Shown: one piece after another, positions 18,773 through 37,700 of the stretch
Numbering within the stretch: position 1 is the stretch's first letter
Layout of the letters: the number at the start of each line of letters is the position of its first letter
Assembly (NCBI RefSeq): GCF_004341445.1
Contig: NZ_SLXV01000011.1
Location: 1 to 64,000, forward strand
Origin: Baia soyae
GTDB taxonomy: Bacteria; Bacillota; Bacilli; Thermoactinomycetales; Thermoactinomycetaceae
DNA length: 64,000 nucleotides
Direction: 5' to 3'
Notes under the pieces: generated by a model
Told to the model about the DNA's origin: nothing
Database searches by the model: none
What the model saw: the letters and a program-made list of their open reading frames with translations, nothing else
Position numbers and translations under genes: made by a program

Positions 18773-18887
18773 TCAATTATATCTCCCATATATATAATGT
18801 AGTATAGACATTTAATATAGACCAAATGATTATACCATGGAAATGAAATGATTTATGAACTCCAATTTCATCCAACAAAGACGCAAA

Positions 18888-18942
18888 AAGCTCCTTTCTA
18901 ATAGCAGTTGATACCTTCAACTGACAATCAGAGAGGAGCTTT
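18888..18942 (-). terminator. Long terminator of the lipid kinase gene
   Basis: AAAAAGCTCC...AGCAGTTGA TACC TTCAACTG...GGAGCTTTTT, about 55 bp, ends 5 bp before the kinase stop (minus strand). It shares outer and inner stem words with the hairpin at 16617-16675. Confidence 0.85.
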
Positions 18943-18946
18943 TTAT

Positions 18947-19834
18947 TTACGGAACAAATACTTCTAAGTGTCCTGGTAGGATCTCAAATCGACCTGCCAA
19001 CTCACCAGTAGCCCACTCTCCATCTAAATTTAAGTTGAGCGGTTCTGGTGTTTTGATATTAAGACTCTGTGTTTGAAAATAGATGACCCGTGAGTCATGT
19101 ACATGCTGTCCACGATACGCTAGGGCAGCTAAATGTAAGAGATCTGGAATTTTCGTCTTTGGCACAATAATCACATCAAGTAATCCATCATGCAAAGTTG
19201 CAGAAGGTGCGATTTTTTGAAACCCACCTACTGAAACACTATTCGCGATTAGGAAGAGTAGGACTTCAATCTCCCACTCTCCCTCTGGTGTCTCGATATG
19301 GATCGGGAAAGGCTCGCTTAGAGTACCTAATTTCTCAATTGCCTTCGCATAGTAAGCAAGCGGTCCCAATACCGTTTTCAGCTTACTTGGCGCCTCATAG
19401 GTAACTTCTGCAATCCTTCCCGCAGCTGCAACGTTAATAAAATAACGTTCTCCATACTTTCCTACATCAATTCGCTTGGTCTTACCTATCTTTACTACTT
19501 CGCTTGCCGCCAAGATATCTCGTGGTAATTCAAGGGCTCTAGCAAGATCGTTCACAGTTCCCGCAGGTAGTATCGCGAGTTTAGGCGGATTCGGATGACT
19601 GGCTAATCCGTTTACTACTTCATGAAGGGTTCCATCTCCACCCGCAGAGACTACTAGATCAAAGCCGCTTTCCGCAACAAGTTTTGCCTCTTCCGCTGCA
19701 CTCCATCGACACTTGGTTGCAAAGCAAGATGTCTCATAACCTGCGTCTTCCAACCGATTGAGAATCTTGGCAAGGTTTCTCTCCACCAATTCTCGTCCTG
19801 CTGTTGGATTATAGATAAGGCGAGCACGTGGCAT
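18947..19834 (-). CDS. Diacylglycerol/lipid kinase (DagK/YegS family)
   Basis: A 295-residue lipid kinase. The N-terminal motif ARLIYNPTAGR and the glycine-rich ATP/catalytic loop VVSAGGDGTLHEVVNGLA (about 60-77) are diagnostic. PAGTVNDLARAL follows, and the C-terminal half is the beta-sandwich domain ending in LNLDGEWATGELAGRFEILPG. It probably phosphorylates the diacylglycerol produced by LTA synthesis so that it re-enters phospholipid synthesis. In Bacillus the DgkB enzyme has this function and is needed for LTA-producing cells. Its position between the two LTA synthases strongly supports this role. It is separated from the upstream synthase by 36 bp, so the genes may share a transcript. 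Confidence 0.9.
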   Translation of the reverse strand: MPRARLIYNPTAGRELVERNLAKILNRLEDAGYETSCFATKCRWSAAEEAKLVAESGFDLVVSAGGDGTLHEVVNGLASHPNPPKLAILPAGTVNDLARALELPRDILAASEVVKIGKTKRIDVGKYGERYFINVAAAGRIAEVTYEAPSKLKTVLGPLAYYAKAIEKLGTLSEPFPIHIETPEGEWEIEVLLFLIANSVSVGGFQKIAPSATLHDGLLDVIIVPKTKIPDLLHLAALAYRGQHVHDSRVIYFQTQSLNIKTPEPLNLNLDGEWATGELAGRFEILPGHLEVFVP

Positions 19835-22259: not shown

Positions 22260-23099
22260 TTACAAATAAATCGCCGGATTGACGGGAGTTCCATTTATAT
22301 GTACCTCAAAGTGTAAATGGGGCCCTGTAGAACCACCTGCACTCCCAACACCTGCTATGTTTTGTCCCTTCGTTACAGTTTGACCTTCACGAACATAGAT
22401 CATATTCGAATACATATGCCCGTACCACGTTTCTACGCCTCCGCCATGGTCGATTACGATCAGGTTCCCAAAGCCTTTAGAAGGACCCGCTTTTTTGACA
22501 ATCCCACTCTCTGCTGCATAAATCGGGGTTCCAACAGGCTTAGGAAAGTCGATTCCGTTATGATGCTTAGCCTTACCCGAAATAGGATGAATCCTAGTCC
22601 CAAATCCCGAACTAATCGTTGGGCTTTTAATAGGGAGGTTAAAATCTCCACTTCCCGAGAGAAAGGGAAGCCCTGCGATTCCTCCTGGCCCCATCCCTCC
22701 TACTATTAATTCTCGGTCTAAAGGAGAAGTAGATTCAAACTCATACGTAATCGGACTTGTATCATCCATAAAGATAATTGGGATTTTGATTTCCGCTTTT
22801 GCGGTCGCCTCTTCCCCTTTTATATCCACGCTTAATTTCGTTAGCTGATATTGCTTTCCTTCCCCAAATGCAGCCTTTCCATCTTTCTCCGCCTGTTCTT
22901 CATCTCTTGTCTGAGCTGCCACATGAAGAGCATCCCGCATGGCTGATTGTGCATCCACAACAGCTAATCCTGCAATTGCTAGTTGCCAGATTAGTAGAGC
23001 GAGAAGAATGTATAAGGGTAACATACTTACCATCTCAAGGGTTGCAGAACCCTTTCGTTTGGATTGACTCCAGCAAACGATTTTATGAAACCACCTCAT
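22260..23099 (-). CDS. TadE-like pseudopilin fused to an M23 (LytM-type) metallopeptidase
   Basis: A 279-residue chimera. Residues 1-60 form a TadE-like pilin head with a prepilin-type motif (RKGSATLEM, Gly17 with Glu at +5) and one membrane helix (about 26-48). A beta-rich linker follows (about 80-130). A full M23 domain then spans 160-279: His180 and Asp184 in HHNGIDFP, His228 in YGHMY and His261/His263 in GPHLHFEVH, so all zinc and catalytic residues are present. M23 enzymes cut peptidoglycan cross-bridges. Here the enzyme would be held in the envelope by the pilin-like head, probably to open the wall for the Tad pilus. Last gene of the Tad locus. Confidence 0.88.
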   Translation of the reverse strand: MRWFHKIVCWSQSKRKGSATLEMVSMLPLYILLALLIWQLAIAGLAVVDAQSAMRDALHVAAQTRDEEQAEKDGKAAFGEGKQYQLTKLSVDIKGEEATAKAEIKIPIIFMDDTSPITYEFESTSPLDRELIVGGMGPGGIAGLPFLSGSGDFNLPIKSPTISSGFGTRIHPISGKAKHHNGIDFPKPVGTPIYAAESGIVKKAGPSKGFGNLIVIDHGGGVETWYGHMYSNMIYVREGQTVTKGQNIAGVGSAGGSTGPHLHFEVHINGTPVNPAIYL

Positions 23100-23139: not shown

Positions 23140-24644
23140 TCACTTTTGTTCCTCTTTCTTTCCTTTTAACTCTTCTAATGTTTCAGGAGGGGATTGCCTA
23201 AAGCGCTGTTTCAGATTTAACCAATGTGGTTGCATCGAGATAATCGTTCTTCCAATATTGTTCTTGGGTATACGAGTTAATGAATAACTTACATAAAATG
23301 GACTGTCTTTACTGAGATTCTTTCGGTTCTTGTCAAATTGTTGATCCAATCTATCAACCAAATGATTCCATTGGTCTACTATGTTATCACCACTTCTACT
23401 CCACTGCTTGTCCATATGTTCTACGGCTATCCGCCTTTGTGGCTAAATCCACCCACTTAGACTTATCAATTTTTTTCGTTACAGCTAGGTAGCCGATGGC
23501 ATTCAACACACGAGTGTACTCCCTCTCCACCTTCCCAACAACCTGATCGCGCAGATTATCAATTAGTAAAGAATCGCTATCGTAACTCTTTTTTAACTTA
23601 TCTATCTCTCTATCAAACCACTGACTATTTTCTGCTTTCAAAGAATCTATATAGGATTCAAATACCTTGTCAAAATTATGATTGTTATCTACTGATTGAA
23701 AATTACCCCCACCTGCTTTGGATACCTTCTCTAACTCTTTTTTACTCTCTGCATCCAGATCAAATCCGATAATATTAACAATCGTTTTCATATTAGACTG
23801 ATATAATTTATAAGCTTCCGATACGGGATTTCCCCCACACGTTTCTAATCCATCACTGACAATATAGACAACGTTCTTCACCCCTGCTTCTTGAGCAGAT
23901 CCTAAGTCCTTTGTCGATTCCTCTATTGCCCGTGCGAGGGGTGTCCAGCCAGATGGCTTCACTTTATCTAGTGAAAGATTGAAAGGAAGATTCATAGGGT
24001 TTCGGACCGTAAATAGCCTCTGTACTCTGGCAAGATACGTCCTTTCCATTCTTATCATTTGAACCCTTATGACCATAAACTCGTAAAGTTAGATTCGTAT
24101 TCGGAGAGAGCTTGGCCACAAAACGATTCACTGCCGACTTTGCCAACTCCATTTTCTTCTGGCCTTCAACAGTACCGTTCATACTTCCACTTGCATCGAG
24201 TAGGATTACTACATTTTGTTTCGGTTCCTGACTCAACTCTTGTACTTTCTTTTGCGCATCAGGAGATTGAGGATCTAACGTAAGTAACTCCGGCTCTTGA
24301 TACTTCCGAGCCTTAATCTCTTCAAACTGCTTTTCCTCTTGATTGTACGAATCCCCTACTAGTCTTAAAACCTCCGCATAGTACTCCTCTACAGTTAAGC
24401 CTTCTTTCACTTTGTCTAACTCTTTCCATACAGCATCCATATCATATCGATCAGCTGCATAGATACCTTTTCCATCATCTTTCACAATCTCTTCCCACTT
24501 GGTCAATGGCTTAGGTGGTTTGTATGTAATTTCCTGTTTTTTCTCTGGTTTCTGCTTATCCGACTGTTGACCTAAAAGCGAACAGCCCGGTAGGACTAGC
24601 ATTGTGCAGAGTAAGGTAAGAAATAGCTTATATGTATGTTTCAT
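23140..24644 (-). pseudogene. VWA-domain lipoprotein, copy 1 (two frameshifts)
   Basis: The frame opens at 24644 with a lipoprotein signal (MLVLPGCSLLGQQ) and a VWA domain containing the MIDAS motif VVILLDASGSMNGT. It shifts near 23970, where an extra T relative to the copy at 24667 breaks YESSFQS|LDKVKP. It shifts again near 23415, where a small deletion removes the WSDLG equivalent. Joined, the product would be about 490 residues: lipoprotein signal, helical N-region, VWA (with SDGLETCGGNP), then a charged helical C-region. Related to the intact gene at 30214-31554 and the broken one at 24667-26206. Probably non-functional unless the shifts are sequence errors. Confidence 0.8.
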
Positions 24645-24666
24645 GGTAGCTCCTGTCCTACTTTTT

Positions 24667-26206
24667 TCATCTAGCACTATTATGAATCACTATCTGGTTC
24701 CTTTTCGCCAACTTTATACTTTTTTTCAATTTCTCTAAAGTTTCTGGAGGAGATTGGGTAAAACGAGCCGGGAGTATAAACCATTTTTGAAGATCCATGG
24801 ATCTATATACATTATTTTCTGGTAGACGGACTGGGGGATACCCATTGAGAAACGAGTTGGTAAGCTTCCTTTTATTTTTATAGAATTGGCTATCTAACTC
24901 TCTCACTAAGTCATTCCATTGACCGGTTACGTTATCTCCACCACTACTAAACTGACTATCCATATGTTCGCCCAAATCCGACCAACGACTATCCGCTTTC
25001 TGTGCGAGTTCTACCCATTTCTTACTATCAATTTTTTTCGTTACAGATAGGTATCCAAAAGCATTTAGCAGACGAGCATGCTCTTTCTTCACCTTCAAAA
25101 CCACTTGCTTATGTAAATCATCAATTAACGAAGAATCACTATTATAGTTATTTTTCAACTTTGTTATCTCTCTATTAAACCACTGACCATTTTCCTTTTT
25201 CAGAGATTCTATATAATGATCAAATGCTTTATCAAAATCCTTATCACTATCGACTGCCTGAAAAGCACCTCCGCCTGCTTTGGATACTTTTTCTAGCGCC
25301 TCTTTGCTTTTCCCATCTAAATCAAATCCAATAATATTCACGACCGCTTTCACATTAGATTGGTGCAATTGGTAGGCTTCGATACAGGATTTCCGCCACA
25401 CGTTTCAAGTCCATCGCTGACAATATAGACAATATTTTCAACGTCTTTATCTTGCGAACTGCTCAGATCCTTGCCTGCCTCTTGCATCGCACGTGCCAAA
25501 GGAGTCCAACCAGCTGGCTTTACTTTGTCTAACGAAGATTGAAAGGATGATTCATACGCTTTAGGCCCATAAATGGTTTCAGTAGCTTGACAAGATGCTT
25601 CTTTTCCACCCTTATCATTAGAGCCTTTATGACCGTAGACACGTAAAGAAAGGTTCGTATTCGGAGAAAGCTTCGTCACAAATCGATTCACTGCTGATTT
25701 CGCCAAATCTATTTTCTTCTGGCTCCCAACTGTACCATTCATACTTCCACTTGCATCAAGTAGAATCACTACATTTTGCTTCGGTACCTGATTTAATTCT
25801 TGGACTTTCTTCTGTGCCTCTGGTGACTCAGGATCTAACTCCAGCAACTCCGTCCTATACTTCCTTGCTTTCACTTCTTCAAATTGCTTCTCTTCTTGAT
25901 GGTACGATTCCCCTACCAGCTTCAACGCCTCTTTGTAGTACTCATCGATGGTTAATCCTTCTTTCATTTTGTCTAGCTCTTTCCACACGGCATCCATATC
26001 GTATCGATTCGCCGCATAGGTCCCCTGCCCATCATCTTTTACAATCTCTTCCCATTTGGTCGATGGCTTAGGTGGCTGATATGTAACTTCCTGCTTTTTC
26101 TCTGCTTTCTTTTCCCCTTTATCTCCTTGTTGCCCGAAAAGCGAACAACCCGGGAGGACAAGCATCATGCATAGAAGGTAAGTAAATATTTATGTCTATA
26201 ATTCAT
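24667..26206 (-). pseudogene. VWA-domain lipoprotein, copy 2 (two frameshifts)
   Basis: The start ATG is at 26204-26206 (MNYRHKYLLTF). The frame breaks inside the signal peptide near 26170 and resumes as MMLVLPGCSLFGQQ. A second break lies near 25382, where GTATCGAAGCC has lost one base compared with GTATCGGAAGC in copy 1, so GGNPV is followed by a wrong frame. The VWA MIDAS motif VVILLDASGSMNGTV is otherwise intact, and the C-terminal helical region runs to a stop at 24667. It shares about 75 percent of residues with copy 1, so the two are a tandem duplication. Confidence 0.8.
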
Positions 26207-26275: not shown

Positions 26276-26692
26276 TTAATCAATGATCCGTGACTGTGCT
26301 TTATAGGAATATTCAATGGGAGCGATTGAAAGGAACAGGATCTTTACTTTAATCTTGGCCGTTACTTCCATGTAGGACCTTTTTACCCCTTGTTTATCTT
26401 TCTTTTCCTCTTTTTCTATTTTCTTCACCTGATACGATGCGAGCTTCACATTATCGGTTTGAGGGAATGATTTTTCCCCACGTTTTTCTGCTTTCTTGGC
26501 ATCTCCATCATCTGCCGCAACCCGAACTTCTTCCCTCACAAAGGATTGCGTATCCATCACTGCCATCGTAAACACAGCCATCTGCCAGATCACCATACTC
26601 ATCAATGCGACAATCGGTAGAAGGGATACAAACTCTAACGTAGTACTTCCTTGCTTCTCTCTAAGGAAACGTAATTTCAAACGGTTCACCAT
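26276..26692 (-). CDS. tadE: TadE-like pseudopilin
   Basis: A 138-residue protein with a prepilin-type N-terminus (REKQGSTTLEF: Gly then Glu at +5), one helix of about 22 residues (LLPIVALMSMVIWQMAVFTMAV), and a small extracytoplasmic domain rich in Lys and Glu. The QGSTTLEF/helix arrangement is the hallmark of the TadE/TadG pseudopilins that assist Flp pilus assembly. Its ATG overlaps the end of the upstream TadG-like gene by 32 bp, so the two are translated together. The N-terminal region is similar to the head of the TadE-M23 fusion downstream, which fits duplication of tadE followed by capture of a peptidase domain. Confidence 0.85.
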   Translation of the reverse strand: MVNRLKLRFLREKQGSTTLEFVSLLPIVALMSMVIWQMAVFTMAVMDTQSFVREEVRVAADDGDAKKAEKRGEKSFPQTDNVKLASYQVKKIEKEEKKDKQGVKRSYMEVTAKIKVKILFLSIAPIEYSYKAQSRIID

Positions 26693-27215
26693 CCCCCAAC
26701 CACTCTAGATAGCTTCGCTTAGCTCCACGACCGAGTGCGATCACATCCAACTTTTCAAGAGCATCCTCAAAAACACGTGCATCTAGACTTCGTTTTGCCT
26801 GCACCTTCACTCGACCATCCTTACCATCAAAAATCAATACTCCACGTTCGGCTGCATTGTTTTTCTTTAAATACTTCTTAGCAGCAGCAGTCAGTTGGCC
26901 CTTTTTGTTCTTAATGACTTCCTGTAACAAGTCTCTCTTCTTCTTCTCTGTACCCAGTACATACTCATAGCTGTTGAAATGTCCATTATCAAATGCTTCA
27001 TCCATCTTGCGTTCAATTTCATCATGCAACAGCTCGTCTAGCTTCTTAGAAACAGCAACACTCGCCGCGTCTCCAGCTACACGAAGGGAGGACATACTAA
27101 TCCATAGTCCTACTAGAGTCAAAATCGCGCCAAATAGAATAAAATAGATGGGGAGACTACTGAACCATAGACTGGTAATGGTGCCCTTTTTATTTGATAA
27201 TTTCTTCCAGTTCAT
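26661..27215 (-). CDS. TadG-like pilus-associated membrane protein
   Basis: A 184-residue protein with an N-terminal membrane helix (about 16-38, YFILFGAILTLVGLWI) preceded by NKKGTITSLWF, a TadG-like leader lacking the conserved +5 glutamate of pilins. The remaining 145 residues are a mixed alpha/beta extracytoplasmic domain rich in Lys, Asp and Glu, and contain SLRVAGDAASVAVSKKLDELLHD, the small-residue helix common to TadE/G proteins. GAGGAGA precedes the ATG. Context inside the Tad locus supports a role in pilus assembly; the precise function is unknown. Confidence 0.72.
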   Translation of the reverse strand: MNWKKLSNKKGTITSLWFSSLPIYFILFGAILTLVGLWISMSSLRVAGDAASVAVSKKLDELLHDEIERKMDEAFDNGHFNSYEYVLGTEKKKRDLLQEVIKNKKGQLTAAAKKYLKKNNAAERGVLIFDGKDGRVKVQAKRSLDARVFEDALEKLDVIALGRGAKRSYLEWLGDGEPFEITFP

Positions 27216-27230
27216 CCGATGTCTCCTCGC

Positions 27231-27908
27231 TCAATCTTCGACCTCGTAATCAGAGTTATTAATTACAAATATAGATAAAGCAATACCTAATAAGGTAGAA
27301 AGAGTCATATTCATTAGTGTTTGTACAAGAACGACTGCCCACACCGCATTAGAAAATTGTAACGTAACAAATAAAGCAATCGCCTCAATCACCGCAATAA
27401 CCACTGCGAAGATGATTAGGTATCCGAGAGATTTAAGTAAGTTCTTTTGCATAAAACGTGCGGACTCTTTCATTGCCCGCCATCCCTTTTGCCCGTACAA
27501 CAATATAAATTGTGGATAGAAGAAAAAGAAGATAAAGGCAATCAGACCAGGAAGAATAACCAGCATCATACCTAAAATCACCATCAAAGAAAATATAATT
27601 GCAAATAAATACACATAAAATGTCTTTTCAATAGACCGAATCAAAATAGAGCCTGCTGTGACCTGTTCTTCCTTATACTCACTTGCCACCAGCAGGACTA
27701 GTGGAATCTGCACCATTCCCCAAGCTATTAAGGTGAAAATCATATTAAAAATAGGCCCTAAGAATCCAAGCCCCGCAAGATTAGCTTGGATTAAAAAAAT
27801 ATTCACGACGAAATATAGCCCGATATATAGGGGGAGATATAAAATTAGCTGAATCATGATTAATTTACGCCAATGCTCTTTTATTATTTGAAATGTTGAG
27901 ATACCCAT
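27231..27908 (-). CDS. Multi-pass membrane protein of unknown function in the Tad locus
   Basis: A 225-residue protein with about six membrane helices (near 17-40, 50-75, 90-118, 115-140, 160-185, 190-215) and short loops. The KEHWRKLIMIQLILYLPLYI opening, an amphipathic helix followed by a membrane segment, is common in DUF975-like or glycerophosphodiesterase-associated membrane domains. I do not recognise a family with confidence. AGGAG precedes the ATG. It is separated from the TadG-like gene by 15 bp, so it is in the same operon. It could hold assembly proteins together or handle lipids. Confidence 0.6.
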   Translation of the reverse strand: MGISTFQIIKEHWRKLIMIQLILYLPLYIGLYFVVNIFLIQANLAGLGFLGPIFNMIFTLIAWGMVQIPLVLLVASEYKEEQVTAGSILIRSIEKTFYVYLFAIIFSLMVILGMMLVILPGLIAFIFFFFYPQFILLYGQKGWRAMKESARFMQKNLLKSLGYLIIFAVVIAVIEAIALFVTLQFSNAVWAVVLVQTLMNMTLSTLLGIALSIFVINNSDYEVED

Positions 27909-28071
27909 GAAGCAAACTCCTATTCTTTCTTTTCAGTAGGATCATATTTCGTAATTCCCCAGTTTTTCTGGGGAGATTATAAAATTTTCGTTGAGGATCC
28001 ATTTTCAACCCTTCCCATTCATTTGGTATACAATCGCTAACACCTATAAAGAATGGGATATTTTCATTCAC
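27865..28071 (-). CDS. Possible small ORF or gene remnant
   Basis: A 68-codon minus-strand frame (MNENIPFFIGVSDCIPNEW...) overlaps the start of the next gene by 44 bp and contains a hairpin (CCCCAG AAAA CTGGGG). There is no good ribosome binding site. A second frame at its end reads NWGITKYDPTEKKE and stops before the next gene, which looks like the C-terminus of a lost protein. I think it is a frameshifted fragment, but a real small protein is possible. Confidence 0.25.
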   Translation of the reverse strand: MNENIPFFIGVSDCIPNEWEGLKMDPQRKFYNLPRKTGELRNMILLKRKNRSLLHGYLNISNNKRALA

Positions 28072-28128
28072 TCTTTTCTGATTACATAGAATTACTTATC
28101 ACCCTTGCATTCCCTTAGATAAATTCTA

Positions 28129-29052
28129 TTAATCTCTCGGATTTCGAATTCTGTGCATCAAATGATCAACTGTAAACTCTTTTTTTGATTTCTCATCGAA
28201 ATCCTCAAACATATATCGATCTTCTTTCTTAGGAAGTAGCGCTGAGTAACTGAACCACATCAAAAGTAGATTCGGGATTCGATAGATCCGCCAGATATTT
28301 TTACCTCCATAATAACTTTTCATAAATTTCCTCGCTGATTCTTCCACGTCCATGGCACCTTTAAAGCGATAACAAATTTGATAATGTATAATTTCTCCCA
28401 TTTCATAAAATACTATTGCTTTTTCTAAATCTACTTCTATTAGTGGACGTATGACCAAAGACTTAAAAAATTTCTTCCCACACTTGACACTATCAGATAA
28501 TGTCTTTCTGCTTTCTTTAAGATTCCTCGGATATTCCGCAAATTCCTCATACCATCTACGTTCCTCCGGATCTAGGCTACTTTTCCCTACTAGACCCAAG
28601 CTACTTAATAGGAGTAAATTAAACACATCAACCAAATAGATAAACTTTTGTCGTTCACCTGCTTCAACACGATCAAAAGCATGATCAACCCTAAAAGTAA
28701 GCTCTACTATTCTTTTAGCTTGTTTAAGAGAAACGATTGCACCATACTCATCGGTGATTAAAACACCCTTTGGTCCCTCTATCGGTTTACGATAAAGAGC
28801 GTAATAAAATACTTGTCCACCATCAATCGCTCGATAACCTATTATATAGGTCTCACCTTGTAATTTCTTCGACTCTACCGATTGTACGACTGCTTCTGGT
28901 ACGACAGCATTTGACATCTCTCCAGACTCCTTTTCGTATCGATCACTTAAACAAATCACCAGCCAACCAACTACTTTTCCTATTTCTGCAATTGTTGCAT
29001 TTAGTTCCTTCTCTACTGCTATCCCAGTTGCTTTCCTTATTTTGCCCTCCAA
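28129..29052 (-). CDS. Conserved-looking hypothetical protein in the Tad locus
   Basis: A 307-residue protein starting at TTG (29050-29052), with GGAG nine bases upstream. It has no signal peptide. The sequence is mixed alpha/beta: a possible sensor-like N-domain (YIIGYRAIDGGQVFYYALYRKP near 70-91) and a C-half with the aromatic-rich segments IVFYEMGEIIHYQICYRFKG and IPNLLLMWFSYSALLP, which may be membrane-associated. I recognise no family. It sits between the secreted repeat protein and the polytopic membrane protein of the pilus locus, so a partner role in pilus function is likely by context only. Confidence 0.55.
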   Translation of the reverse strand: MEGKIRKATGIAVEKELNATIAEIGKVVGWLVICLSDRYEKESGEMSNAVVPEAVVQSVESKKLQGETYIIGYRAIDGGQVFYYALYRKPIEGPKGVLITDEYGAIVSLKQAKRIVELTFRVDHAFDRVEAGERQKFIYLVDVFNLLLLSSLGLVGKSSLDPEERRWYEEFAEYPRNLKESRKTLSDSVKCGKKFFKSLVIRPLIEVDLEKAIVFYEMGEIIHYQICYRFKGAMDVEESARKFMKSYYGGKNIWRIYRIPNLLLMWFSYSALLPKKEDRYMFEDFDEKSKKEFTVDHLMHRIRNPRD

Positions 29053-29120
29053 TAAATCAATCTCCTAGATTACGAACTTTTGGTAACAGATTATCATTGA
29101 GATTAGCTTACCATTCCAAA

Positions 29121-30158
29121 TCACGAGAACCATCCCTTTACTTTATTCCATCCAGAAGAAAGTGCATCACCAATCGCCTTCCTGTGGCGCACTACTTTTC
29201 CTACTGCAAATACACCGGCCCCTGCTAACGCAACAACCCCACCGACAGGCCCTAAAAACGGAGCTACTGCCATAGCCATCTCTCCTACGTTAGCCACTAA
29301 ATCCCCTGATGCATCTATTCCATCGTCAACAGTATTAGCGTTAAATATTTTACCTACATTTTGAACTGCCTCATAACCCGCAAATAATCCACCAACTACT
29401 GCAGTCACCGGTGTTACTTTGGAGAACAATTTTCCAAGATAAGAACCAGACTGACCCGCTGCCTGTATAGATCTTTCTGAAAAATCCGAAATATGTTTAA
29501 CATCTCTCGTGCTCTTAAAAAAATCCCATGATTGCCATCCATTATCGATTGCAGACCATCCATCTAATCCCGCCTCATAGAGTGCCTTTTGATCTTTATC
29601 TACTATCCCATCAAGACCAAGGGTAATTCCTCCACGAACAAGTGAAGAACTTAAAAAATATGAACCCTTGACCACATCCTTGGGAGTAAGACCAACAAAG
29701 TTGGGATTTGTACCTTCTGGAGCTGTGATACGAGACAAATTATCTGCAAGATACAATCCATCCGCTTTACTAACTAAACCCTTTAACGTGTCATTTAGGA
29801 CATATTTAAATGTTTTATAACTACTTGAGTCGATACTATACCATTTTGGCTCCTCTTGTTGTGGGTTACTAGAAGTGGTTGATGGCTGTTTATCACCTTT
29901 AGGAATCTTGTCAAGCTCTGGTAGCTTATCCATCTTCTTGAGGTCTTTCTCATCTAATTTTGGAAGATCTTCCGCATCTAGCGTAGGAAGATCTTCCGCA
30001 TCCAGTGTAGGAAACTTTCCTACACTTAAACTATACTGTCCAAATGAACTTCCAGTCGTTATGTCTTTTGCCAAAACAATGTAAGGAGAAAATATGATAA
30101 AGGCGAACATAATCAATACACTTATTGCAAAATACTTTCGACGATTCCCATTTATCAT
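29121..30158 (-). CDS. Secreted protein with acidic tandem repeats and Gly/Ala-rich C-terminal domain
   Basis: A 345-residue protein with an N-terminal signal (ISVLIMFAFIIFSPYIVLA). Just after it come two exact eight-residue repeats (PTLDAEDL) and degenerate ones (PKLDEKDL, PELDKIP), encoded by a 24-bp tandem repeat. Then comes a proline/serine linker and a globular domain of about 230 residues ending in a hydrophobic Gly/Ala stretch (FLGPVGGVVALAGAGVFAVG) and HRKAIGDALSSGWNKVKGWF. That ending is common to secreted effector or toxin-like proteins of Firmicutes with a membrane-active C-terminus. No immunity gene is recognisable, but the unknown gene just downstream could be one. Function not proven. 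Confidence 0.65.
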   Translation of the reverse strand: MINGNRRKYFAISVLIMFAFIIFSPYIVLAKDITTGSSFGQYSLSVGKFPTLDAEDLPTLDAEDLPKLDEKDLKKMDKLPELDKIPKGDKQPSTTSSNPQQEEPKWYSIDSSSYKTFKYVLNDTLKGLVSKADGLYLADNLSRITAPEGTNPNFVGLTPKDVVKGSYFLSSSLVRGGITLGLDGIVDKDQKALYEAGLDGWSAIDNGWQSWDFFKSTRDVKHISDFSERSIQAAGQSGSYLGKLFSKVTPVTAVVGGLFAGYEAVQNVGKIFNANTVDDGIDASGDLVANVGEMAMAVAPFLGPVGGVVALAGAGVFAVGKVVRHRKAIGDALSSGWNKVKGWFS

Positions 30159-30213: not shown

Positions 30214-31554
30214 CTATTTTCCATACTTCCCTTTCATCTCTTTTTCTTTCCGTTCAGCTGATTCGTTCAGTTCAGCGAAATTTCGATCAATTTCCTGATT
30301 TATTTCAGACCACTTTTTGTCTTTATAGTCTGCTAAAGCTATGTATCTCTTTAAAAATATTTGACCCATATCCAAGCGGGATTTCTCAGATATCTTCCCT
30401 TTTTCCTTTAGGTATTCTCTTGCCATCTTCATATTTTTCTCTTCACTTTTCATTAATTTCCAGAAGCCACTTGAAACTGAAAACAACAATTTTTCACTTT
30501 CCCCCTTCCTACTAAGCCTTTGAGAATGCAGGCTAAGGGAAGCTTTTGTTCCCCAACTATTCCATTTCCAATACATATCTCGATTTTTCTTATCAAAGTA
30601 CTCCCGGAGATCTTTCTCAGACTGAACAGTACTGTACTCTCCTCCACCTGCTTCAGCTACTTTCTTAAGAGCTTGTTGTCCAGCATTATCTACATCAAAG
30701 CCAATAATATTGACAATTGCTTTCGCCCCAGATTGGTTCAGTTCTTTTGCTGCTTGTACAGGATCTCCACCACACGTTTCGATTCCATCGCTTACTACAT
30801 AAACAATATTCTCAGTATCTGCTCCTTTTTCTTCTAAGTCTTTCTTCGCTTGTGTTAAAGCTAAGCCGATCGGTGTCCAACCGGTCGGTTTAAACTGATT
30901 AAGTGACTGGCCGAATTTTTGTGAATCATAGGCTGTTAATGGATATACCTCCTCTGTACTTTTGCAGGAAACATCTTTATCCTTATCCGCACTACTTCCT
31001 TTATTTCCATATACTCGTAGCGAAACATTTACCCCTTTAGGTAGTGAAGAAGAGAAGCGATTTACTGCTGCCTTTGCTAGATCCATCTTGGTACGTCCAC
31101 CTACTTTACCCACCATGCTTCCGCTAGAATCTAAGAGAATATAGGCATTAACGGGCTTCTGCTTCTCATTAGGTATATCAGTAGCCTGATTCTCTGGATC
31201 TACTACATCAATATGTAAGGTTGTATTAAAGTTGTCGATCTCCTTTAACACTGGTTGATAGTCCTCAGCTAATAAATCAATAATGGCTTTCTGGGCATCT
31301 TTGACAGATATATCATTTGGCAATTTATCCAGTTCTGACTTCACCTTGGTTTCGTCATACTTTACCCCTGCATACTTACCAGGTCCTTCTTTGAGATAAC
31401 CATCTAAATCAGTAGCAAGTTCTTTGGTAGTAGGCTTTATATCATTTTCCTGTTTACTCTCCTTAGCAGGTGTTTCTTTAATTGAACACGCTGACAAAAC
31501 GAGTAAAAACATACTTATGCAAGCGAGCACGGATTTTTTTAACACTATCTTCAC
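30214..31554 (-). CDS. VWA-domain lipoprotein of the Tad locus (intact copy)
   Basis: A 446-residue lipoprotein. The lipobox LVLSACS is near residues 18-24. A helical N-region (about 40-110) precedes a VWA domain with the full MIDAS motif YILLDSSGSMVGK and the second metal residues in FKPTGWTPIG and YVVSDGIETCGGDP. A charged helical tail of about 150 residues follows (WKWNSWG..., many Lys/Glu). VWA domains bind protein ligands through Mg2+, so it may act as an adhesin or pilus-assembly partner. Translation starts at GTG (31554), with a second GTG three codons later that has better spacing from AGGA. The two downstream copies are frameshifted, which leaves this as the only working one. Confidence 0.88.
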   Translation of the reverse strand: MKIVLKKSVLACISMFLLVLSACSIKETPAKESKQENDIKPTTKELATDLDGYLKEGPGKYAGVKYDETKVKSELDKLPNDISVKDAQKAIIDLLAEDYQPVLKEIDNFNTTLHIDVVDPENQATDIPNEKQKPVNAYILLDSSGSMVGKVGGRTKMDLAKAAVNRFSSSLPKGVNVSLRVYGNKGSSADKDKDVSCKSTEEVYPLTAYDSQKFGQSLNQFKPTGWTPIGLALTQAKKDLEEKGADTENIVYVVSDGIETCGGDPVQAAKELNQSGAKAIVNIIGFDVDNAGQQALKKVAEAGGGEYSTVQSEKDLREYFDKKNRDMYWKWNSWGTKASLSLHSQRLSRKGESEKLLFSVSSGFWKLMKSEEKNMKMAREYLKEKGKISEKSRLDMGQIFLKRYIALADYKDKKWSEINQEIDRNFAELNESAERKEKEMKGKYGK

Positions 31555-31691: not shown

Positions 31692-31916
31692 TTATTCAAA
31701 TATTTTCATCACTTTATCTTTAAAAGCATCTTTGATATTCGTGGCTGCACCATCATCGGTAAATACCCATCCTAATAGCCCTGCGAAAACAGCCCCGATC
31801 CCTATTATGATCACATACTCCATCGTAGGGGATCCTTTTTTACTTTTAAATGCACGCTTCATTCTAACTTTCATAACTTCATACTCCGCACTCAACTTTA
31901 GCAATGATTCATTCAT
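31692..31916 (-). CDS. flp: Flp-type (type IVb) major pilin
   Basis: A 74-residue prepilin. The leader ends in KSKKG, followed by SPTMEYVIIIGIGAVFAGLLG: a glycine at the cleavage site, glutamate at +5 and tyrosine at +6, exactly as in Flp pilins. The helix is followed by a short tail (ATNIKDAFKDKVMKIFE). The long 27-residue leader is basic. AGGAGG lies upstream of the ATG. It should be cleaved by the prepilin peptidase at 36033-36491 and polymerised by TadA/B/C. The preceding tadC gene and the following hairpin frame it as an abundant product. Confidence 0.93.
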   Translation of the reverse strand: MNESLLKLSAEYEVMKVRMKRAFKSKKGSPTMEYVIIIGIGAVFAGLLGWVFTDDGAATNIKDAFKDKVMKIFE

Positions 31917-32010: not shown

Positions 32011-32910
32011 CTAGAATCCCGAAAAAATATTCTTCGAGATAAAATTGGTATAAATAATAAACATCCCGATCAAAAGTAAAATAGATGGGAAAATAACGAC
32101 TCCTGTCACAAGAGACACCTTAGGCGTTGCTTTACCCGCTTTTTCCTTCGCTTGTTCAGCCCGCATTTGCCTCATATCATCAGCCTGCTCGGTGAAGGTC
32201 TTTGCAACCGAAGTTCCAAGAATATGGGCTTGGATAAGAGATTGAACGAGTATGTCTAGTTCAGGAGAATCCGTCCGATTAATTAAAGCTCGATAGGCGG
32301 CTTCTCGCTGAACACCAAACCGAATTTCCTGATTCAATCTTGCTAGCTCCTCTGTTAATGGTCCCTCGCTGGTCTCGATATAGTATCGAATTGCCTCATC
32401 TAGCCCCATCCCTGCTTGGAGAGTAATACTCATCATATCCAAAAAATTAGGTAGATCGAGTCGCAGTTGCTCTTGCCTTTGCTTTGCCCTGACTCGAAGC
32501 AAAAGAATCGGATATGAGTAGCCTAAAAAAACTAGAACTGGAAATAGAGCTGGACCAAATGGTAAACCGAGAAATACATAGAAAAATCCTGCTCCAAATC
32601 CCGAAATTGCACCTAAAATCTTTGCACCATGCACCCTGCGAAGGTTAAGACCATAGGGATAACCCGCTTTCGTCAGATACTCCTCAATCTCTACAGGATC
32701 ACTGAGGATGGAAATCTTTTCCCCAGTTTCCGCAAAACGATCAACCCAGCTCCATAAGCGATCATACCGTCTCTTTCGTTTCATCACCCGCCACGGAGGG
32801 ATGTAGTAATCTAGCTTTTGTTCTACTTGTTTGTGCTCTGATACATAAGAATAATAGGAGATTCCAGCAAATAATAAACACAACCAGATGCTAATAACTA
32901 ATAGAGCCAT
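32011..32910 (-). CDS. tadC: Flp pilus assembly protein TadC (GspF-family platform protein)
   Basis: A 299-residue inner-membrane platform protein. It has an N-terminal helix (1-20), a T2SSF/GspF domain around 100-290 with the conserved DLPNFLDMMSITLQAGMGLDEAI segment, and a C-terminal helix pair (FPSILLLIGMFIIYTN). It works with TadB and the TadA ATPase to push the pilin through the membrane. It lies 11 bp after tadB, so they are one transcription unit. Length and order fit Gram-positive Tad loci, which lack secretin genes. Confidence 0.92.
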   Translation of the reverse strand: MALLVISIWLCLLFAGISYYSYVSEHKQVEQKLDYYIPPWRVMKRKRRYDRLWSWVDRFAETGEKISILSDPVEIEEYLTKAGYPYGLNLRRVHGAKILGAISGFGAGFFYVFLGLPFGPALFPVLVFLGYSYPILLLRVRAKQRQEQLRLDLPNFLDMMSITLQAGMGLDEAIRYYIETSEGPLTEELARLNQEIRFGVQREAAYRALINRTDSPELDILVQSLIQAHILGTSVAKTFTEQADDMRQMRAEQAKEKAGKATPKVSLVTGVVIFPSILLLIGMFIIYTNFISKNIFSGF

Positions 32911-32921
32911 ATACTCCCTCC

Positions 32922-33845
32922 TTATACTTTAATGTCGGAAATTTTCTTAATGAGAATAAAGCCAATAATCTGCATTACGGCAAAGACTAGGATAGATAGA
33001 ATCCCAAAGATTGAAGTTGCAAATTGCTTGAAGTCTCCCATCAATTGACTAATCATCAGAATAGCAGCCATAGACACAAACGGTAACATATAAGCCGTCA
33101 TCCGCGATTGGGCAATTGTAGCATCAACAGTCTTATTAATAATCTTGCGTTCTTCCATCGTTCTCGCCATTTCGTTAAGTGCTTGTGAGAGATTCCCACC
33201 CGCTCGGCGCTGGATAACTAATGCATTAACAAATACCCTCAAGTCTTTACTGTCTGCTTTTCTTAATAACTCATAGAGAGAGACTTCCAAGTCCCTGCCC
33301 AGCTGTATCTCGCGAACAACGACACCAAGCTCTTTTTGCATGGGATTCGAGATTTCTTTGACAACTAGCTCCAATCCTTGATGGATGGACATACCCGCAC
33401 GGGCAGCAGAGCTAAGGAGCCGGCAAACCTCCCCTAGTTGATCGTCCATGCGCTTGATATAAATTCTTCTTCTCGAGTTCAGGAAGAACTTCGAAGCAAC
33501 TGGAACTAGGCTAGTTGCTAGGAGCAGACTTATGTAGAGCGGTAATCCAAACATACGATTGATGAGAAACATCACAACAGCCCCAGCTACTACTAACAAT
33601 GCGCCATACTCTCCAGGACGAAGACTAATGCTAGCCCGCTCTAGAGACGGTTGCAACTGAACCGCCCAGCTCTGCCTGTCAAGTCGATCTACCAAACGAT
33701 CGGACCAACGCTCTTCTACGATGGCATCCATGTATTTTTCGATTTGCTGATTTGTTTCTTTTTTCGATTGACGAGCTCGCAACCAGAAGTAGATGGCTAT
33801 GACGAAGCAAAAAACAGAACCCCCAAAGACTAACCCTGCACCCAT
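32922..33845 (-). CDS. tadB: Flp pilus assembly protein TadB (GspF-family platform protein)
   Basis: A 307-residue membrane protein with an N-terminal helix (1-22), a helix pair (about 80-115) and a C-terminal pair (about 240-300). The T2SSF core contains LSSAARAGMSIHQGLELVVKEI and FVNALVIQRRAGGNLSQALNEMA, both hallmarks of the GspF/TadB fold. It is the partner of TadC in the platform complex and docks on the TadA ATPase. Its start overlaps the tadA stop by one base, so it is translationally coupled. Confidence 0.92.
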   Translation of the reverse strand: MGAGLVFGGSVFCFVIAIYFWLRARQSKKETNQQIEKYMDAIVEERWSDRLVDRLDRQSWAVQLQPSLERASISLRPGEYGALLVVAGAVVMFLINRMFGLPLYISLLLATSLVPVASKFFLNSRRRIYIKRMDDQLGEVCRLLSSAARAGMSIHQGLELVVKEISNPMQKELGVVVREIQLGRDLEVSLYELLRKADSKDLRVFVNALVIQRRAGGNLSQALNEMARTMEERKIINKTVDATIAQSRMTAYMLPFVSMAAILMISQLMGDFKQFATSIFGILSILVFAVMQIIGFILIKKISDIKV

Positions 33846-35200
33846 TAGCTCGTCCCCTTTCGAGGTGTGAAGATCCGTTTATCAACCCGATTACCAAATG
33901 CTTGTAATCGCGCCAGGGATGATGGAATAACGCCCGTGGCATCAAAATACCCTTCTACGGCACCATCATATTGAACATTGATTTGGTTAAACCGGAAGAT
34001 ATCGACCATCTCCACGCTTCCATCTTCTTTCTCATGCAGTTCGGAGATAGCTAGCATCTTACGTTGTCCATCAGGAAGACGACCGATCTGTACGATGTAG
34101 TCAACAGCGGACACGATATATTGGCGGATGATTGTGGAAGGAAGGTCCATCCCTGACATCATCACCATCCCCTCTAGCCGGCTCATCGCATCTTTCGGCG
34201 AGTTCGCATGGACAGTGGTAAGGGACCCTTCGTGACCTGTGTTCATCGCTTGGAGCATGTCGAACGCTTCGGAACCACGCACCTCACCGACAATGATCCG
34301 GTCTGGACGCATCCGCAAAGCATTTTTCACTAATTGGCGAATGCTAACTTCCCCTTTACCCTCTACGTTGACAGGACGTGCTTCCATCCCAGCCACATGC
34401 CCATGATTAATACGCAACTCTGCCATATCCTCGATCGTGACAATCCGTTCCTCAGCAGGGATTTTACACGCCAATGCATTGAGCAAGGTCGTTTTTCCTG
34501 AACCAGTACCACCTGAGATGATGAGATTGAGCTTCGATTGGACTAGGGCGGTCAGAAACTGGGCCATCTCTTTGGTTAAGCTTTGAAACTGGATTAAATC
34601 GTCAATCGAAATCGGTTCTTTACGGAACTTACGAATAGAAAGCAATGAGCCTTTCAAACTAATCGGTGGGATCACGGCATTCACACGACTTCCATCTGGC
34701 AGACGTGCATCTACCATAGGAGAGCTAACATCGACTCGTCGGCCAATCGGGGCTACGATGCGATCAATAACGTGACGCAGTGCTTCCTCATCTCGAAATT
34801 GAATATCGGTTTTTTCCAACTTCCCTCTTTTTTCATAGAAAACTTCATAGGGTCCATTTACGAGAATCTCTGTAATGTCTTCATTTTCTAGCAAAGCCTC
34901 AAGCGGTCCATACCCAACTGACTCGTTAATAATGCGCGAGATAAGGCGATTTCGGTCTTGTCCCGGGATAACGACCTGCTCTTCTGCCAAATATCTTCCG
35001 ATAATCCGGTCTAACGTAACGCGTTGCTCTGCGGAAGGCATCTGCGTTAATTTCTCTAAGTCTGTCTCTCGAAGGAGTCTCGCTTTAAAATGCTGTGCTA
35101 GCTCATTAATCCGATTATGATCAACGGTGCGTGTAATCTCTTTTGCTTCACTTTTGGCACGTGGCAAACGTCTTTGATTGGTAGAAAATCGATTCGTCAT
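33845..35200 (-). CDS. tadA: Tad pilus secretion ATPase TadA/CpaF
   Basis: A 451-residue hexameric ATPase of the GspE/VirB11 type. An N-terminal helical domain (to about 110) leads to the conserved [19 protein letters not shown] (about 161-179). Walker A is [15 protein letters not shown] (229-243). The Asp box/Walker B segment is [10 protein letters not shown], with [28 protein letters not shown] containing the His box. It supplies energy for pilin export. It overlaps the cpaB gene by four bases upstream and tadB by one base downstream, so the operon is tightly packed. Confidence 0.95.
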
Positions 35201-35961
35201 TCGTGATCAACCTCGAGATCTGCCTTATCCTTCTTGTCAGCATCAGATGGCTTTTTCTTGTCATCTTTTTCTTTTTGCTTCGGTAATACTAATTCAGAGG
35301 ATGGCGATCCTCCGTCTTTTACAGCAGGAGCCTTTAAGATTCGAATCGCTGGAGCAAAGTTCTGGTCATGAATGAATTTCTCTGCGTCAGCAATCGTCAT
35401 CTCGAGAGCGACCATCCCAACGCTTCCATCTTCCCCTTTACCTACCCCTGCAACTAAAATATCTTGCCACATTCTTTTGGTTTCTTTATCTGATCGCGAA
35501 ACGATGATGTCAACCCGATCGTTTGCAGTAAAAATGGAATCAAAGCTTGTATTTTTACCAGCTGGCACTAAGATAATCCGTTTGTTTGGATCTTTAATAT
35601 CCGAGTTCTCTTTTAACATGTTAGCCGTTAATAGATCACCTTTTGCTAGTGGGGTGATGGACGTTAGCACTTGAATCGGTAGCGGCCGATTACCACTTAA
35701 CTTAATCTGATTTAGATCCGTAACGACCGAACTAGGCAAGAACTGCTTGGGAACTTGCTTCGCTTCAAAGTTATCCGGTTGCAGTGCTTGACGCTGTGCG
35801 ATATCTTTCTTTGCTACGTAAATAGTCACCATCTGACCTAATCTTGAATCTACTGAGCTTAATTTTTCTAAGAACATATAGCCAGCCACTGTCGCTAAGG
35901 CTAAGGCAATCATGATAAAGAGGAGTGCCCTCCGTTTTGCTTCTTGCATCGTTGTATTCAC
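35197..35961 (-). CDS. cpaB: Flp pilus assembly protein CpaB (SAF domain)
   Basis: A 254-residue protein with a membrane helix near 11-30 and an extracytoplasmic SAF-type domain (VAKKDIAQRQALQPDNFEAKQVPKQFLP, about 49-76). The middle of the protein carries LVPAGKNTSFDSIF and NDRVDIIVSR, the second half of the domain seen in RcpC/CpaB. The Lys/Asp-rich C-terminal tail (about 30 residues) is disordered. The start is GTG at 35961 or, four codons later, ATG; both are in frame and only the GTG is close to GAGGGT. It probably bridges the cytoplasmic membrane platform and the cell wall. Confidence 0.85.
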   Translation of the reverse strand: MNTTMQEAKRRALLFIMIALALATVAGYMFLEKLSSVDSRLGQMVTIYVAKKDIAQRQALQPDNFEAKQVPKQFLPSSVVTDLNQIKLSGNRPLPIQVLTSITPLAKGDLLTANMLKENSDIKDPNKRIILVPAGKNTSFDSIFTANDRVDIIVSRSDKETKRMWQDILVAGVGKGEDGSVGMVALEMTIADAEKFIHDQNFAPAIRILKAPAVKDGGSPSSELVLPKQKEKDDKKKPSDADKKDKADLEVDHE

Positions 35962-36032: not shown

Positions 36033-36491
36033 CTACTGTATTTTACCGATATAGATCAAAATCAAACCTACTGTAATAAATGGAGCAAAGGGGATTTCTG
36101 TTTTTCGGCCTGTCTCTTTCCAGCTAATCAACTTCCGTACTAAGAAATACAAGCCCGCTAGTATGTGGGATAAAAAGAAGAGTACTAAAAACGTTTGAAA
36201 TCCAACCGCTAGTCCCAACATAGCAAAGAGCTTAATATCTCCGCCGCCAATAGATTGTTCACCTGTTACAGTCGCAATTAGTAGCAAAATAAATAGTGTA
36301 ATGATGGATGTCAGAAGATAGTTCCACCATGGCTCAGGTCTTTCTATCGCACGGATCCCAATAGCTGCCAATGCCCCTATCAAGATAAATCGGTCATAGA
36401 TCAACCGTTTTTTCAGATCAGTATAGGTTGCACATCCCAATAAAATAAGCAGAATCCCATATAATGCGTGTTCGAGGTAGGGCAATGTCAA
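36033..36491 (-). CDS. Prepilin peptidase TadV/CpaA (A24 family)
   Basis: A 152-residue polytopic aspartyl peptidase that cleaves the Flp pilin leader. The two catalytic Asp residues are in CATYTDLKKRLIYD (near 26) and SIGGGDIKLFAMLG (near 85, the GxGD motif). It has about four to five membrane helices and no N-methyltransferase domain, as is usual for TadV. Translation starts at TTG (36489-36491) after AGAGAGG. It is followed closely by cpaB and preceded by cpaE. Likely substrates are Flp and the TadE-like proteins, including the TadE-M23 fusion. Confidence 0.9.
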   Translation of the reverse strand: MTLPYLEHALYGILLILLGCATYTDLKKRLIYDRFILIGALAAIGIRAIERPEPWWNYLLTSIITLFILLLIATVTGEQSIGGGDIKLFAMLGLAVGFQTFLVLFFLSHILAGLYFLVRKLISWKETGRKTEIPFAPFITVGLILIYIGKIQ

Positions 36492-36509: not shown

Positions 36510-37700
36510 TTACTTCCTCTTCTTCGTCTCTTCTACAGATGATGTTCCTTTATAAGTGAGGACGACTTTCGCTAGCTTTTGGATCTGTCTAGCAAGAGGG
36601 ATCAGTCTCTTCTCTTTACCGCCAGAACGGATGGTTTGTCCGCGATTAATATAGTTATGGAGTGCCTTAGGATCATCAGGTAGCTCTGCTATCACTTCAT
36701 ATGGGAAACGCTTTTTTACTTCTTTAGCTGATATCTCCGTATTGCGGCTTGTACGATTTAAGATAATTTCAAGTCGATCCGTTGGATCTACGCCAATGGT
36801 TCCAAATGCACCTATTACTCGGTTCATCGTACGGAGTGAGACAAGGTCTGGATTTAATACATAAAAAATCTTGTCGGATTCTTCTAAGGCAATATAAGAA
36901 AGTGTGTTTAATTCAGAAGGCAAGTCTACAATGATAAAGTCATAGTATAGTCGGGCAGTACGAAGTAATCTTTCTACATGTTCTTCCGTTATTTGTTCAT
37001 TAATTTCTACATTCGCTGGACTAGGCAACACACTCATCTGTGACTTAGGCTCGATGATCGTTACGTTACGAATATGGTTATCATTTAGTTCTTTCAGAAC
37101 TGGAGTAAGATCATAAATATTTCGTTCACTTTCCACGTTTAAGTAAGTATCGATTCCTCCGTACTGAAGGTTAAGGTCTATGAGTAAAACACCTGAATCC
37201 GAATCTAGTTGCAAAGTTTGGGCTAATGTAGATGCGATGAGGCTCTTTCCAACTCCACCTTTTCCACTATATAAGGTAATAATTTGTCCTCTACCCCAAG
37301 CACTGTTGTGTACAGCCTCTTTTTCATGTCCTTCCGATTGAAGCGCCTTGATCGCTCTGGTTACAGCGTCTTCTAGCACGTTAATCTCGTCTGGGAAAAA
37401 TAGAATATCAAATGCACCAACTCGGCTAGCATCTCGAATTCGGGCAGAGTCTTTTATATCCGTCAAATATAAAATCTCTGTCTTTTTGACTTCTTTTTTT
37501 ATGTAGGGAATTAATTGTACCAATGACTGACCTTGGCTTTCATGCAAGATAACAATGTCAGGCTCTAGGCGGGAAATTTCTCTTCGTACCTCCCCTGGTG
37601 GGATTGGCGTCACGCTAGAGAATACATTCTTCATCCTATGAGTTAAATCTTCGGCAACCATATATTCTTCTGTTACGATTACCAAACTTAAATCCTTCAT
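36510..37700 (-). CDS. cpaE: Tad pilus localisation ATPase CpaE/TadZ
   Basis: A 396-residue protein. A response-regulator-like N-terminal domain (about 1-120) has the phosphoacceptor-equivalent PDIVILHES, followed by a ParA/MinD-type ATPase: Walker A SGKGGVGKSLIA (145-156) and VLLIDLNLQYGG (switch region). The product would recruit the pilus machine to a site on the membrane. It is the first gene of the locus and 19 bp ahead of the peptidase gene. The pilus operon promoter should lie in the interval 37701-37880, where repeated ACACAAT words occur. Confidence 0.92.
   Translation of the reverse strand: MKDLSLVIVTEEYMVAEDLTHRMKNVFSSVTPIPPGEVRREISRLEPDIVILHESQGQSLVQLIPYIKKEVKKTEILYLTDIKDSARIRDASRVGAFDILFFPDEINVLEDAVTRAIKALQSEGHEKEAVHNSAWGRGQIITLYSGKGGVGKSLIASTLAQTLQLDSDSGVLLIDLNLQYGGIDTYLNVESERNIYDLTPVLKELNDNHIRNVTIIEPKSQMSVLPSPANVEINEQITEEHVERLLRTARLYYDFIIVDLPSELNTLSYIALEESDKIFYVLNPDLVSLRTMNRVIGAFGTIGVDPTDRLEIILNRTSRNTEISAKEVKKRFPYEVIAELPDDPKALHNYINRGQTIRSGGKEKRLIPLARQIQKLAKVVLTYKGTSSVEETKKRK

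Follow-up and report, generated by a model that had tools for sequence, protein, structure and literature searches.

A TadE-type minor pilin fused to an M23 peptidase in the Tad loci of Thermoactinomycetales

Minor pilins of the TadE, TadF and TadG types have been placed at the tip of Tad pili, which they are proposed to prime, and in the KilL/M/N and CpaJ/K/L tip complexes the minor pilins proposed to form the tip bear variable C-terminal domains (PMC12075869, PMC13170226). In the available text of those papers these distal domains are either VWA domains or lack an assigned function, whereas the protein analyzed here, which we call E23, ends in a wall enzyme whose active-site residues are all intact. 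Peptidoglycan hydrolysis has been linked to piliation in Neisseria gonorrhoeae, where the M23B peptidase Mpg (NGO1686) is needed for full type IV piliation (PMC11980366); E23 shares the M23 fold of Mpg (6muk), but Mpg is described as a periplasmic protein that serves the type IV pili of a Gram-negative cell, whereas E23 is itself a pilin and belongs to a Gram-positive Tad system. In Streptococcus sanguinis, LytF promotes the extrusion of type IV pili through the Gram-positive wall; unlike E23, it is secreted as a protein of its own, has a CHAP domain and belongs to the competence system, and it is not known to be part of the pilus, although the authors of that work say that it may associate with it (PMC13192262). 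The phi29 tail enzyme (3csq) belongs to a phage tail and the LytM domain of PrgK (8s0u) to a conjugation machine, and neither is a pilus subunit. FlgJ, VirB1 and PrgK are dedicated wall hydrolases of envelope machines, and YuiC is a stand-alone protein with muralytic activity which, unlike the 3D domain of the sister fusions described below, is not carried on a pilin stem.

The passage of type IV filaments through the thick monoderm wall is, in the text of one review of the subject, openly speculative (PMC6916266). A 2025 structural paper states that reports of a peptidoglycan hydrolase or lytic transglycosylase are lacking for the Tad pilus (PMC12307814), and neither "M23" nor "hydrolase" occurs in the main text of a survey of Gram-positive type IV pili (PMC3244431). 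Among the best matches listed from the literature searched, which took in few subscription papers and no bioRxiv preprints, none described a TadE-M23 fusion. The pilin family and the enzyme family are each known and their combination is new; the role of the fusion is probably new as well. In E23 the enzyme and a minor-pilin-like protein form one polypeptide, an arrangement present in most Tad loci of one order, where unrelated enzymes of two types are borne by stems of two lineages. It gives the wall-passage question a single-gene, testable handle, and it suggests that enzymes can be carried as cargo on pilin stems.

The fusion gene and its Tad locus

The window, a 64,000-nucleotide stretch of a Baia soyae contig, contains a Tad cluster of which E23 is the last gene. 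The gene and its parts are:

22260..23099, minus strand: E23, TadE-type minor pilin fused to an M23 peptidase, 279 residues
23049..23099, minus strand: predicted prepilin leader, residues 1-17, predicted cut after G17 (invariant motif, charge)
22908..23048, minus strand: pilin-type helix, residues 18-64 (AlphaFold2 helix 21-64, hydropathy peak)
22719..22907, minus strand: TadE-like head, residues 65-127 (AlphaFold2 model, homology to 26276-26692)
22653..22709, minus strand: flexible linker, residues 131-149 (pLDDT <50)
22263..22652, minus strand: M23 peptidase domain, residues 150-279 (PF01551, invariant residues, sequence and fold matches)

The initial annotation had described this gene as coding for a TadE-like pseudopilin that continues into a complete M23 domain, a description upheld by the Pfam M23 match, homology and an AlphaFold2 model, and its residue numbering (G17, E22, H180, D184, H228, H261, H263) was correct. 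The plus-strand reading of 22260-23099 was ruled out, as it has stops throughout. The protein begins with a class III leader of net charge +5 up to G17, followed by E22 at position +5, and the five best 19-residue hydrophobic windows begin at residues 24-31, with mean hydropathy of 2.19-2.41. Fold modeling, which the initial annotation had suggested, gave a pilin helix, a small head, a disordered linker and a LytM-type domain. The AlphaFold2 model, built on a 39-row alignment (mean pLDDT 87, pTM 0.52), has a long helix at residues 21-64 and a head at 67-126 made up of one helix (67-78) and three strands (85-94, 97-106 and 117-126), followed by the linker at 131-149, where pLDDT is below 50, and an M23 fold from about residue 150, the orientation of which relative to the stem the model leaves undefined (pTM 0.52).

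A missing TadE match over residues 1-60 had been named in advance as grounds for rejecting the fusion; a match is present, covering residues 17-57, but it is sub-threshold, the Pfam TadE model (PF07811) scoring 20.8 bits where its cut-off is 22.9 (E = 4.2e-4). Run over the whole genome at E ≤ 1e-5, the same model recovered none of the window's genes. Searching the genome for relatives of E23 itself returned ten other matches, nine of them M23-type and one a TadE-like gene of the same locus (26276-26692), which matches E23 at 39% over residues 14-125 (E = 1.5e-15), and E23-type and TadE stems could be joined in one alignment and tree. The Pfam TadE model was above its cut-off in five of six order fusions scanned, and the two-domain architecture search proposed in the initial annotation found PF07811 precomputed beside PF01551 in 12 of the 33 top database clusters, the window's own included. 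Judged from these sequence comparisons, E23 has a true TadE stem despite its sub-threshold Pfam score. Because that score falls just under the threshold, annotation gives only "M23" for E23; the other 21 of the 33 top clusters likewise have precomputed M23 domains without TadE, and most named fusion genes are called M23 or DD-metalloendopeptidase, since the TadE part is often under the Pfam threshold. This naming explains why the fusion was easily overlooked.

The enzyme domain matches Pfam Peptidase_M23 (PF01551) over residues 179-275 at 115.2 bits against a cut-off of 28.7 (E = 1.6e-33). Its top PDB sequence match is Mpg (6muk; E = 8e-27), and structure comparison of the predicted model found a LytM-type fold, with EnvC LytM and SpoIIQ structures among the fold matches. 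In an alignment of 39 fusions, which does not include P0033, a short member of the 33 top clusters whose motif a pattern search had missed, G17, E22, H180, D184, H228, H261 and H263 were invariant in all 39 and the head region was alignable throughout; the HxxxD and HxH motifs presumably supply the zinc ligands, together with a catalytic histidine, as in M23 peptidases. Four close pairs of hydrolase-bearing pilins had dN of 0.10-0.22, with dS above 1.7 or saturated. The invariant residues and the low dN relative to dS show that pilin motif and active site alike are kept. Several LytM domains are regulatory, and the EnvC and SpoIIQ matches would fit a non-catalytic module that binds peptidoglycan or a partner and anchors or regulates the machine, much as EnvC or SpoIIQ do. 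We consider such a role very unlikely, as the zinc ligands and both catalytic histidines are unchanged in every aligned fusion, and as a different enzyme fold, the 3D domain, takes the same slot on the same stem lineage in two genomes.

The cluster ending with E23 includes TadA, TadB, TadC, TadV, CpaB and TadZ-like genes:

36510..37700, minus strand: TadZ/CpaE-like ATPase (AAA_31; CpaE_hom_Actino at 59.4 bits, sub-threshold)
36033..36491, minus strand: TadV-type prepilin peptidase (Peptidase_A24, E = 8.2e-18)
35197..35961, minus strand: CpaB/RcpC-like protein (SAF; TIGR03177 at 50.8 bits, below the cut-off of 71)
33845..35200, minus strand: TadA/CpaF ATPase (T2SSE, E = 3.7e-66; TIGR03819 at 352.4 bits, just below the cut-off of 373.15)
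32922..33845, minus strand: TadB, T2SSF domain
32011..32910, minus strand: TadC, T2SSF domain
31692..31916, minus strand: Flp-type major pilin (GSPTMEY motif; DUF4244 sub-threshold; orthologues)
30214..31554, minus strand: VWA-domain gene in one open frame (PF00092, E = 2.7e-14; relatives in order Tad loci)
29121..30158, 28129..29052 and 27231..27908, minus strand: three locus genes
26661..27215, minus strand: TadG-like minor pilin, named by position and orthologues, with no meaningful Pfam match
26276..26692, minus strand: ordinary TadE-type minor pilin whose stem is paralogous to that of E23 (TadE at 14.4 bits, sub-threshold)
23396..26168, minus strand: two more VWA copies, each split between frames, with TadE on one side and E23 on the other
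23140..23415, minus strand: 91-residue open reading frame between the split VWA copies and E23

The A24 match at 36033-36491 bears out the claim that the locus has a prepilin peptidase of its own. Like TadE/TadF pseudopilins (PF07811), E23 has a G/xxxxE leader, a pilin helix, a small head and a TadG-like neighbor in a Tad locus, and the window locus has a minor-pilin gene block. In the TadG-like protein, position +5 is not a glutamate, and by eye the same was true of the other readable N-termini (21 of the 22 printed, the start of the G014 protein being misplaced). In type II secretion a pseudopilin without the +5 glutamate caps the tip, which offers an analogy for the TadG-like protein.

Several other features of the locus were also seen. 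The two split VWA copies are broken at different places, through decay or sequencing error. The block of three genes at 27231-30158, which has no clear family, encodes a 345-residue protein with a signal-like start and repeats, a 307-residue protein and a 225-residue membrane-like protein; it recurs in many order Tad loci, in some of them in more than one copy. Beside the Tad locus are two similar open reading frames of 696 and 714 residues (16682-18772 and 19871-22015, both minus strand), which by eye look like LTA-synthase-type sulfatases. A scan for regulatory signals returned eight promoter-like sites against 11.5 in shuffles and four terminator-like sites against 2.9, and one scan of viral contigs for relatives of the Tad ATPase confirmed none.

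Distribution of the fusion and exchange of stem and enzyme

Among 23 genomes of the family, TadA was found in ten (E ≤ 1e-60), and by the best match per genome the in-frame fusion was present in eight of these (G000, G003, G005, G006, G010, G016, G017 and G021) and in none of the other 13 (Fisher p = 9e-5). The two remaining TadA-bearing genomes, G007 and G014, have Tad machinery with a plain TadE. A relative in the window's own genus (G002) has no TadA at E ≤ 1e-60 and carries a broken E23 whose leader and M23 part are in different frames, and it also keeps Flp, a VWA gene and a TadE remnant; the joint loss of fusion and machine rests on this one genome. In its relic locus (L044:8021-10810), TadA, TadB, TadC and TadZ are absent from the stretch and TadE is joined to its neighbor, while Flp and one VWA gene are still open.

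The wider sample comprised 40 genomes, at least 85% complete, from what we take as the relevant order, GTDB Thermoactinomycetales. The TadE profile matched 29 of them, or 27 once the G002 relic and a weak 65-residue match in G020 were set aside, and 18 of these 27 carry a hydrolase on a TadE stem. The fusion recurs order-wide, which the initial annotation had not noticed, and is a mark of Thermoactinomycetales. A chance fusion or misassembly is ruled out by the presence of the same architecture in these 18 genomes and in the top database clusters. The named relatives (Laceyella, Melghirimyces, Thermoactinomyces, Kroppenstedtia, Polycladospora, Thermoflavimicrobium, Hazenella and Desmospora) all belong to the NCBI family Thermoactinomycetaceae. 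In 16 of the 18 genomes a TadE-type gene lies within 200 bases of the fusion, the exceptions being the window, where the distance is 3.2 kb, and G035, where it is 3.6 kb and a TadE remnant adjoins the fusion. One genome (G024) has a second copy interrupted by an in-frame TAG (L060:688-1539, minus strand) and an uninterrupted copy on L061.

The fusion was absent from nine TadE-bearing genomes of the order (G007, G014, G023, G031, G032, G036, G037, G038 and G039), and a profile scan of the stretches fetched around their loci found no M23 or 3D domain; the profiles were partly built from the fusions, which makes the matches in 17 of 17 fusion loci a matter of construction and leaves the zeros informative. 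One NlpC/P60 protein was seen among the 40 open reading frames of these nine loci, and our guess is that it is L076:14341-15540, which lies beyond the Tad genes.

A further possibility is that E23 is a membrane-anchored autolysin, its stem serving only as a secretion signal and an anchor near the Tad platform, never entering the filament, and its enzyme trimming the wall generally or at the base of the machine. The leader motif does not prove assembly, prepilin helices also anchor pilins that stay unassembled, and the linker modeled as disordered would allow the enzyme to act while membrane-bound. A mere anchor would need neither head nor locus, and yet the +5 glutamate is kept and the head alignable across the aligned fusions, the gene keeps its place among the Tad minor-pilin genes, and the Tad-less relative G002 has a broken copy. 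On balance an autolysin of this kind seems to us unlikely.

The initial annotation had called the fusion unusual for Tad loci, and our searches beyond the order agree with this. A scan of 398 Bacilli genomes, with up to ten candidates scored per genome, gave 70 that matched the TadE profile, 42 of them outside the order, where the longest TadE open frame spans 232 residues, not enough to hold a stem, a head and an M23 domain. From 20 of the 42 TadE loci found outside the order we fetched 8-18 kb each; 18 of the stretches held other tad genes, and none of the 20 had an M23 or 3D domain. Pfam searches of 82 unnamed open reading frames from these loci matched 49 families, and none of the 25 that were listed is a wall hydrolase. 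In a scan of 398 genomes across the phylum with the Pfam TadE model, in which at least 189 genomes matched, the 12 listed frames of at least 221 residues had no M23 or 3D domain, a weak negative, since at that threshold the model misses the window's own genes. A Paenibacillaceae metagenome contig (L087) has TadE and neither M23 nor 3D. A database-wide profile built from nine fusions gave 33 clusters at 298 bits or more, followed by a drop to 215; this search scored 7997 candidates and covered the best 120 of 5296 matches, among the rest of which weak, distant fusions could hide. Two further database searches, returning two proteins (E23 itself included) and six proteins, found only members of the order or nameless proteins. 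Bacteria outside Bacillota were covered by the database-wide searches only.

Beyond what the initial annotation had noticed, two predicted wall-enzyme types, M23 and 3D, are borne on TadE stems in the order. In G028 and G029 an M23 domain sits on a stem of the ordinary TadE lineage, and a 3D domain (PF06725, E = 8.2e-22 and 1.7e-20) on an E23-type stem; for the fusion in L066 the closest solved structure is YuiC (4wlk, E = 1e-21). The two 3D fusions, each beside a TadE stem with M23, are:

L065, 1239-2024, minus strand: TadE stem with a 3D (YuiC-like) domain
L066, 13622-14362, plus strand: TadE stem with a 3D (YuiC-like) domain

One G028 copy of the 3D fusion, which has an unknown base, was used only in a small 3D profile and is absent from the trees.

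A stem tree of 53 rows separated two lineages, ordinary TadE stems and E23-type stems, with several forks left open and with one plain TadE (sG021) landing among the E23-type stems. When three long-branch rows (sG014, sG021 and sG039) were left out, 24 E23-type stems grouped together with support of 96/94. Placing all fusion stems in one clade was then rejected at p-AU 0.0167, a value on the generous side because the group was chosen with the first tree already in view. Trees of the M23 domain, the first without 16 loci and a repeat with both strands read, had an unresolved backbone, and one clade for all fusion M23 domains was neither supported nor rejected (p-AU 0.279). M23 would either have moved between stems or have been captured twice. 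In either case the locus keeps a wall enzyme even as stem and enzyme change, an outcome expected if selection favors minor pilins that bear a wall enzyme. Also seen in the M23 trees was a divergent subtype common to four fusions (L064, L067, L070 and L071), which form a 100/100 group on a branch of 1.04; a stemless copy of this subtype lies near Tad genes at L071:1302-1685.

Possible roles of the fusion and toxin-bearing pilins

We put at about even the chance that E23 is a minor pilin of the tip complex that cuts the peptidoglycan of its own cell's wall so that the pilus can emerge. E23 would insert in the membrane with its C-terminal domain outside, the A24 prepilin peptidase of the locus would trim its leader, and the protein would assemble with the TadE and TadG-like products into a tip complex that primes the pilus. 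The flexible linker, of roughly 20 residues, would let the enzyme reach strands around the tip as the filament is pushed out, and the M23 domain would cut the thick wall from there, opening a path for the pilus. Of this account, sequence shows that the two domains are fused, that the leader motif and the active-site residues are intact, that the gene lies in a Tad locus and is conserved across the order, that enzyme and stem have been exchanged, and that fusion and machine decayed together in one case. The piliation role of Mpg, the effect of LytF and the tip placement of TadE/F/G-type pilins are its precedents. E23 also has the genetic linkage to its machine expected of a dedicated wall hydrolase of an envelope machine. 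On the other side, the window genome has nine other M23-type matches. Passage through the own wall would in general need no dedicated enzyme in the locus, because none was found in the stretches fetched from nine of 27 loci within the order or from 20 of 20 outside it, and with the fusion absent from those nine order loci it is not universally required.

The same tip position would serve attack on other cells, the main rival reading, in which the pilus carries the peptidase to another cell and breaches its wall, possibly admitting toxin-bearing pilins. Flp-type stems on open frames longer than 200 residues were found in 17 of the 27 order genomes that have TadE loci, whereas the 13 genomes lacking such loci had none (Fisher p = 1e-4). 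Of 16 Flp-stem proteins scanned (E ≤ 0.01), six matched Pre-toxin TG, six the lipase-like DUF6792, and two colicin DNase and WHH nuclease, while Ntox44, MafB19-deam and Imm1 were found among the 40 open reading frames of the nine fusion-less order loci (L045, L046, L059, L068, L069 and L073-L076), which were scanned for toxin and immunity families. There is also a precedent in Myxococcus, where Tad-type Kil pili kill prey on contact (PMC12075869). The toxin-stem proteins do not, however, clearly track the fusion, being present in 13 of 18 genomes with it and four of nine without it (p = 0.22); in the window genome the Flp genes alone matched, with no toxin-stem protein; and the words "hydrolase", "peptidoglycan" and "M23" are absent from the main text of the Kil tip paper (PMC12075869). 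Taking both sides together, we regard attack on other cells as rather unlikely to be what E23 is for.

The Flp-stem proteins with toxin-like C-termini look like polymorphic toxins on pilin stems, and none such was found among the best matches listed from the literature searched. Their presence suggests that the Tad machine of Thermoactinomycetales carries effectors. It would be a larger step, and one we think rather improbable, to see the machine as a pilin-stem delivery system, with M23 and 3D as interchangeable drill bits on TadE-type tip stems and polymorphic toxins on Flp stems encoded across the genome, that pierces walls and delivers effectors into other cells. Flp-stem toxin-like proteins were seen at L039:17637-19193, L041:13484-14491, L064:14628-15620 and 18170-19273, L066:1606-2592 and L067:3831-4916, and in L071, L075 and L096-L104, many of them off the contig of the Tad locus; their C-termini include Pre-toxin TG, colicin DNase/WHH, lipase-like and weak EndoU domains. 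One TNT domain was also observed, in a Tad locus outside the order (among L119-L138).
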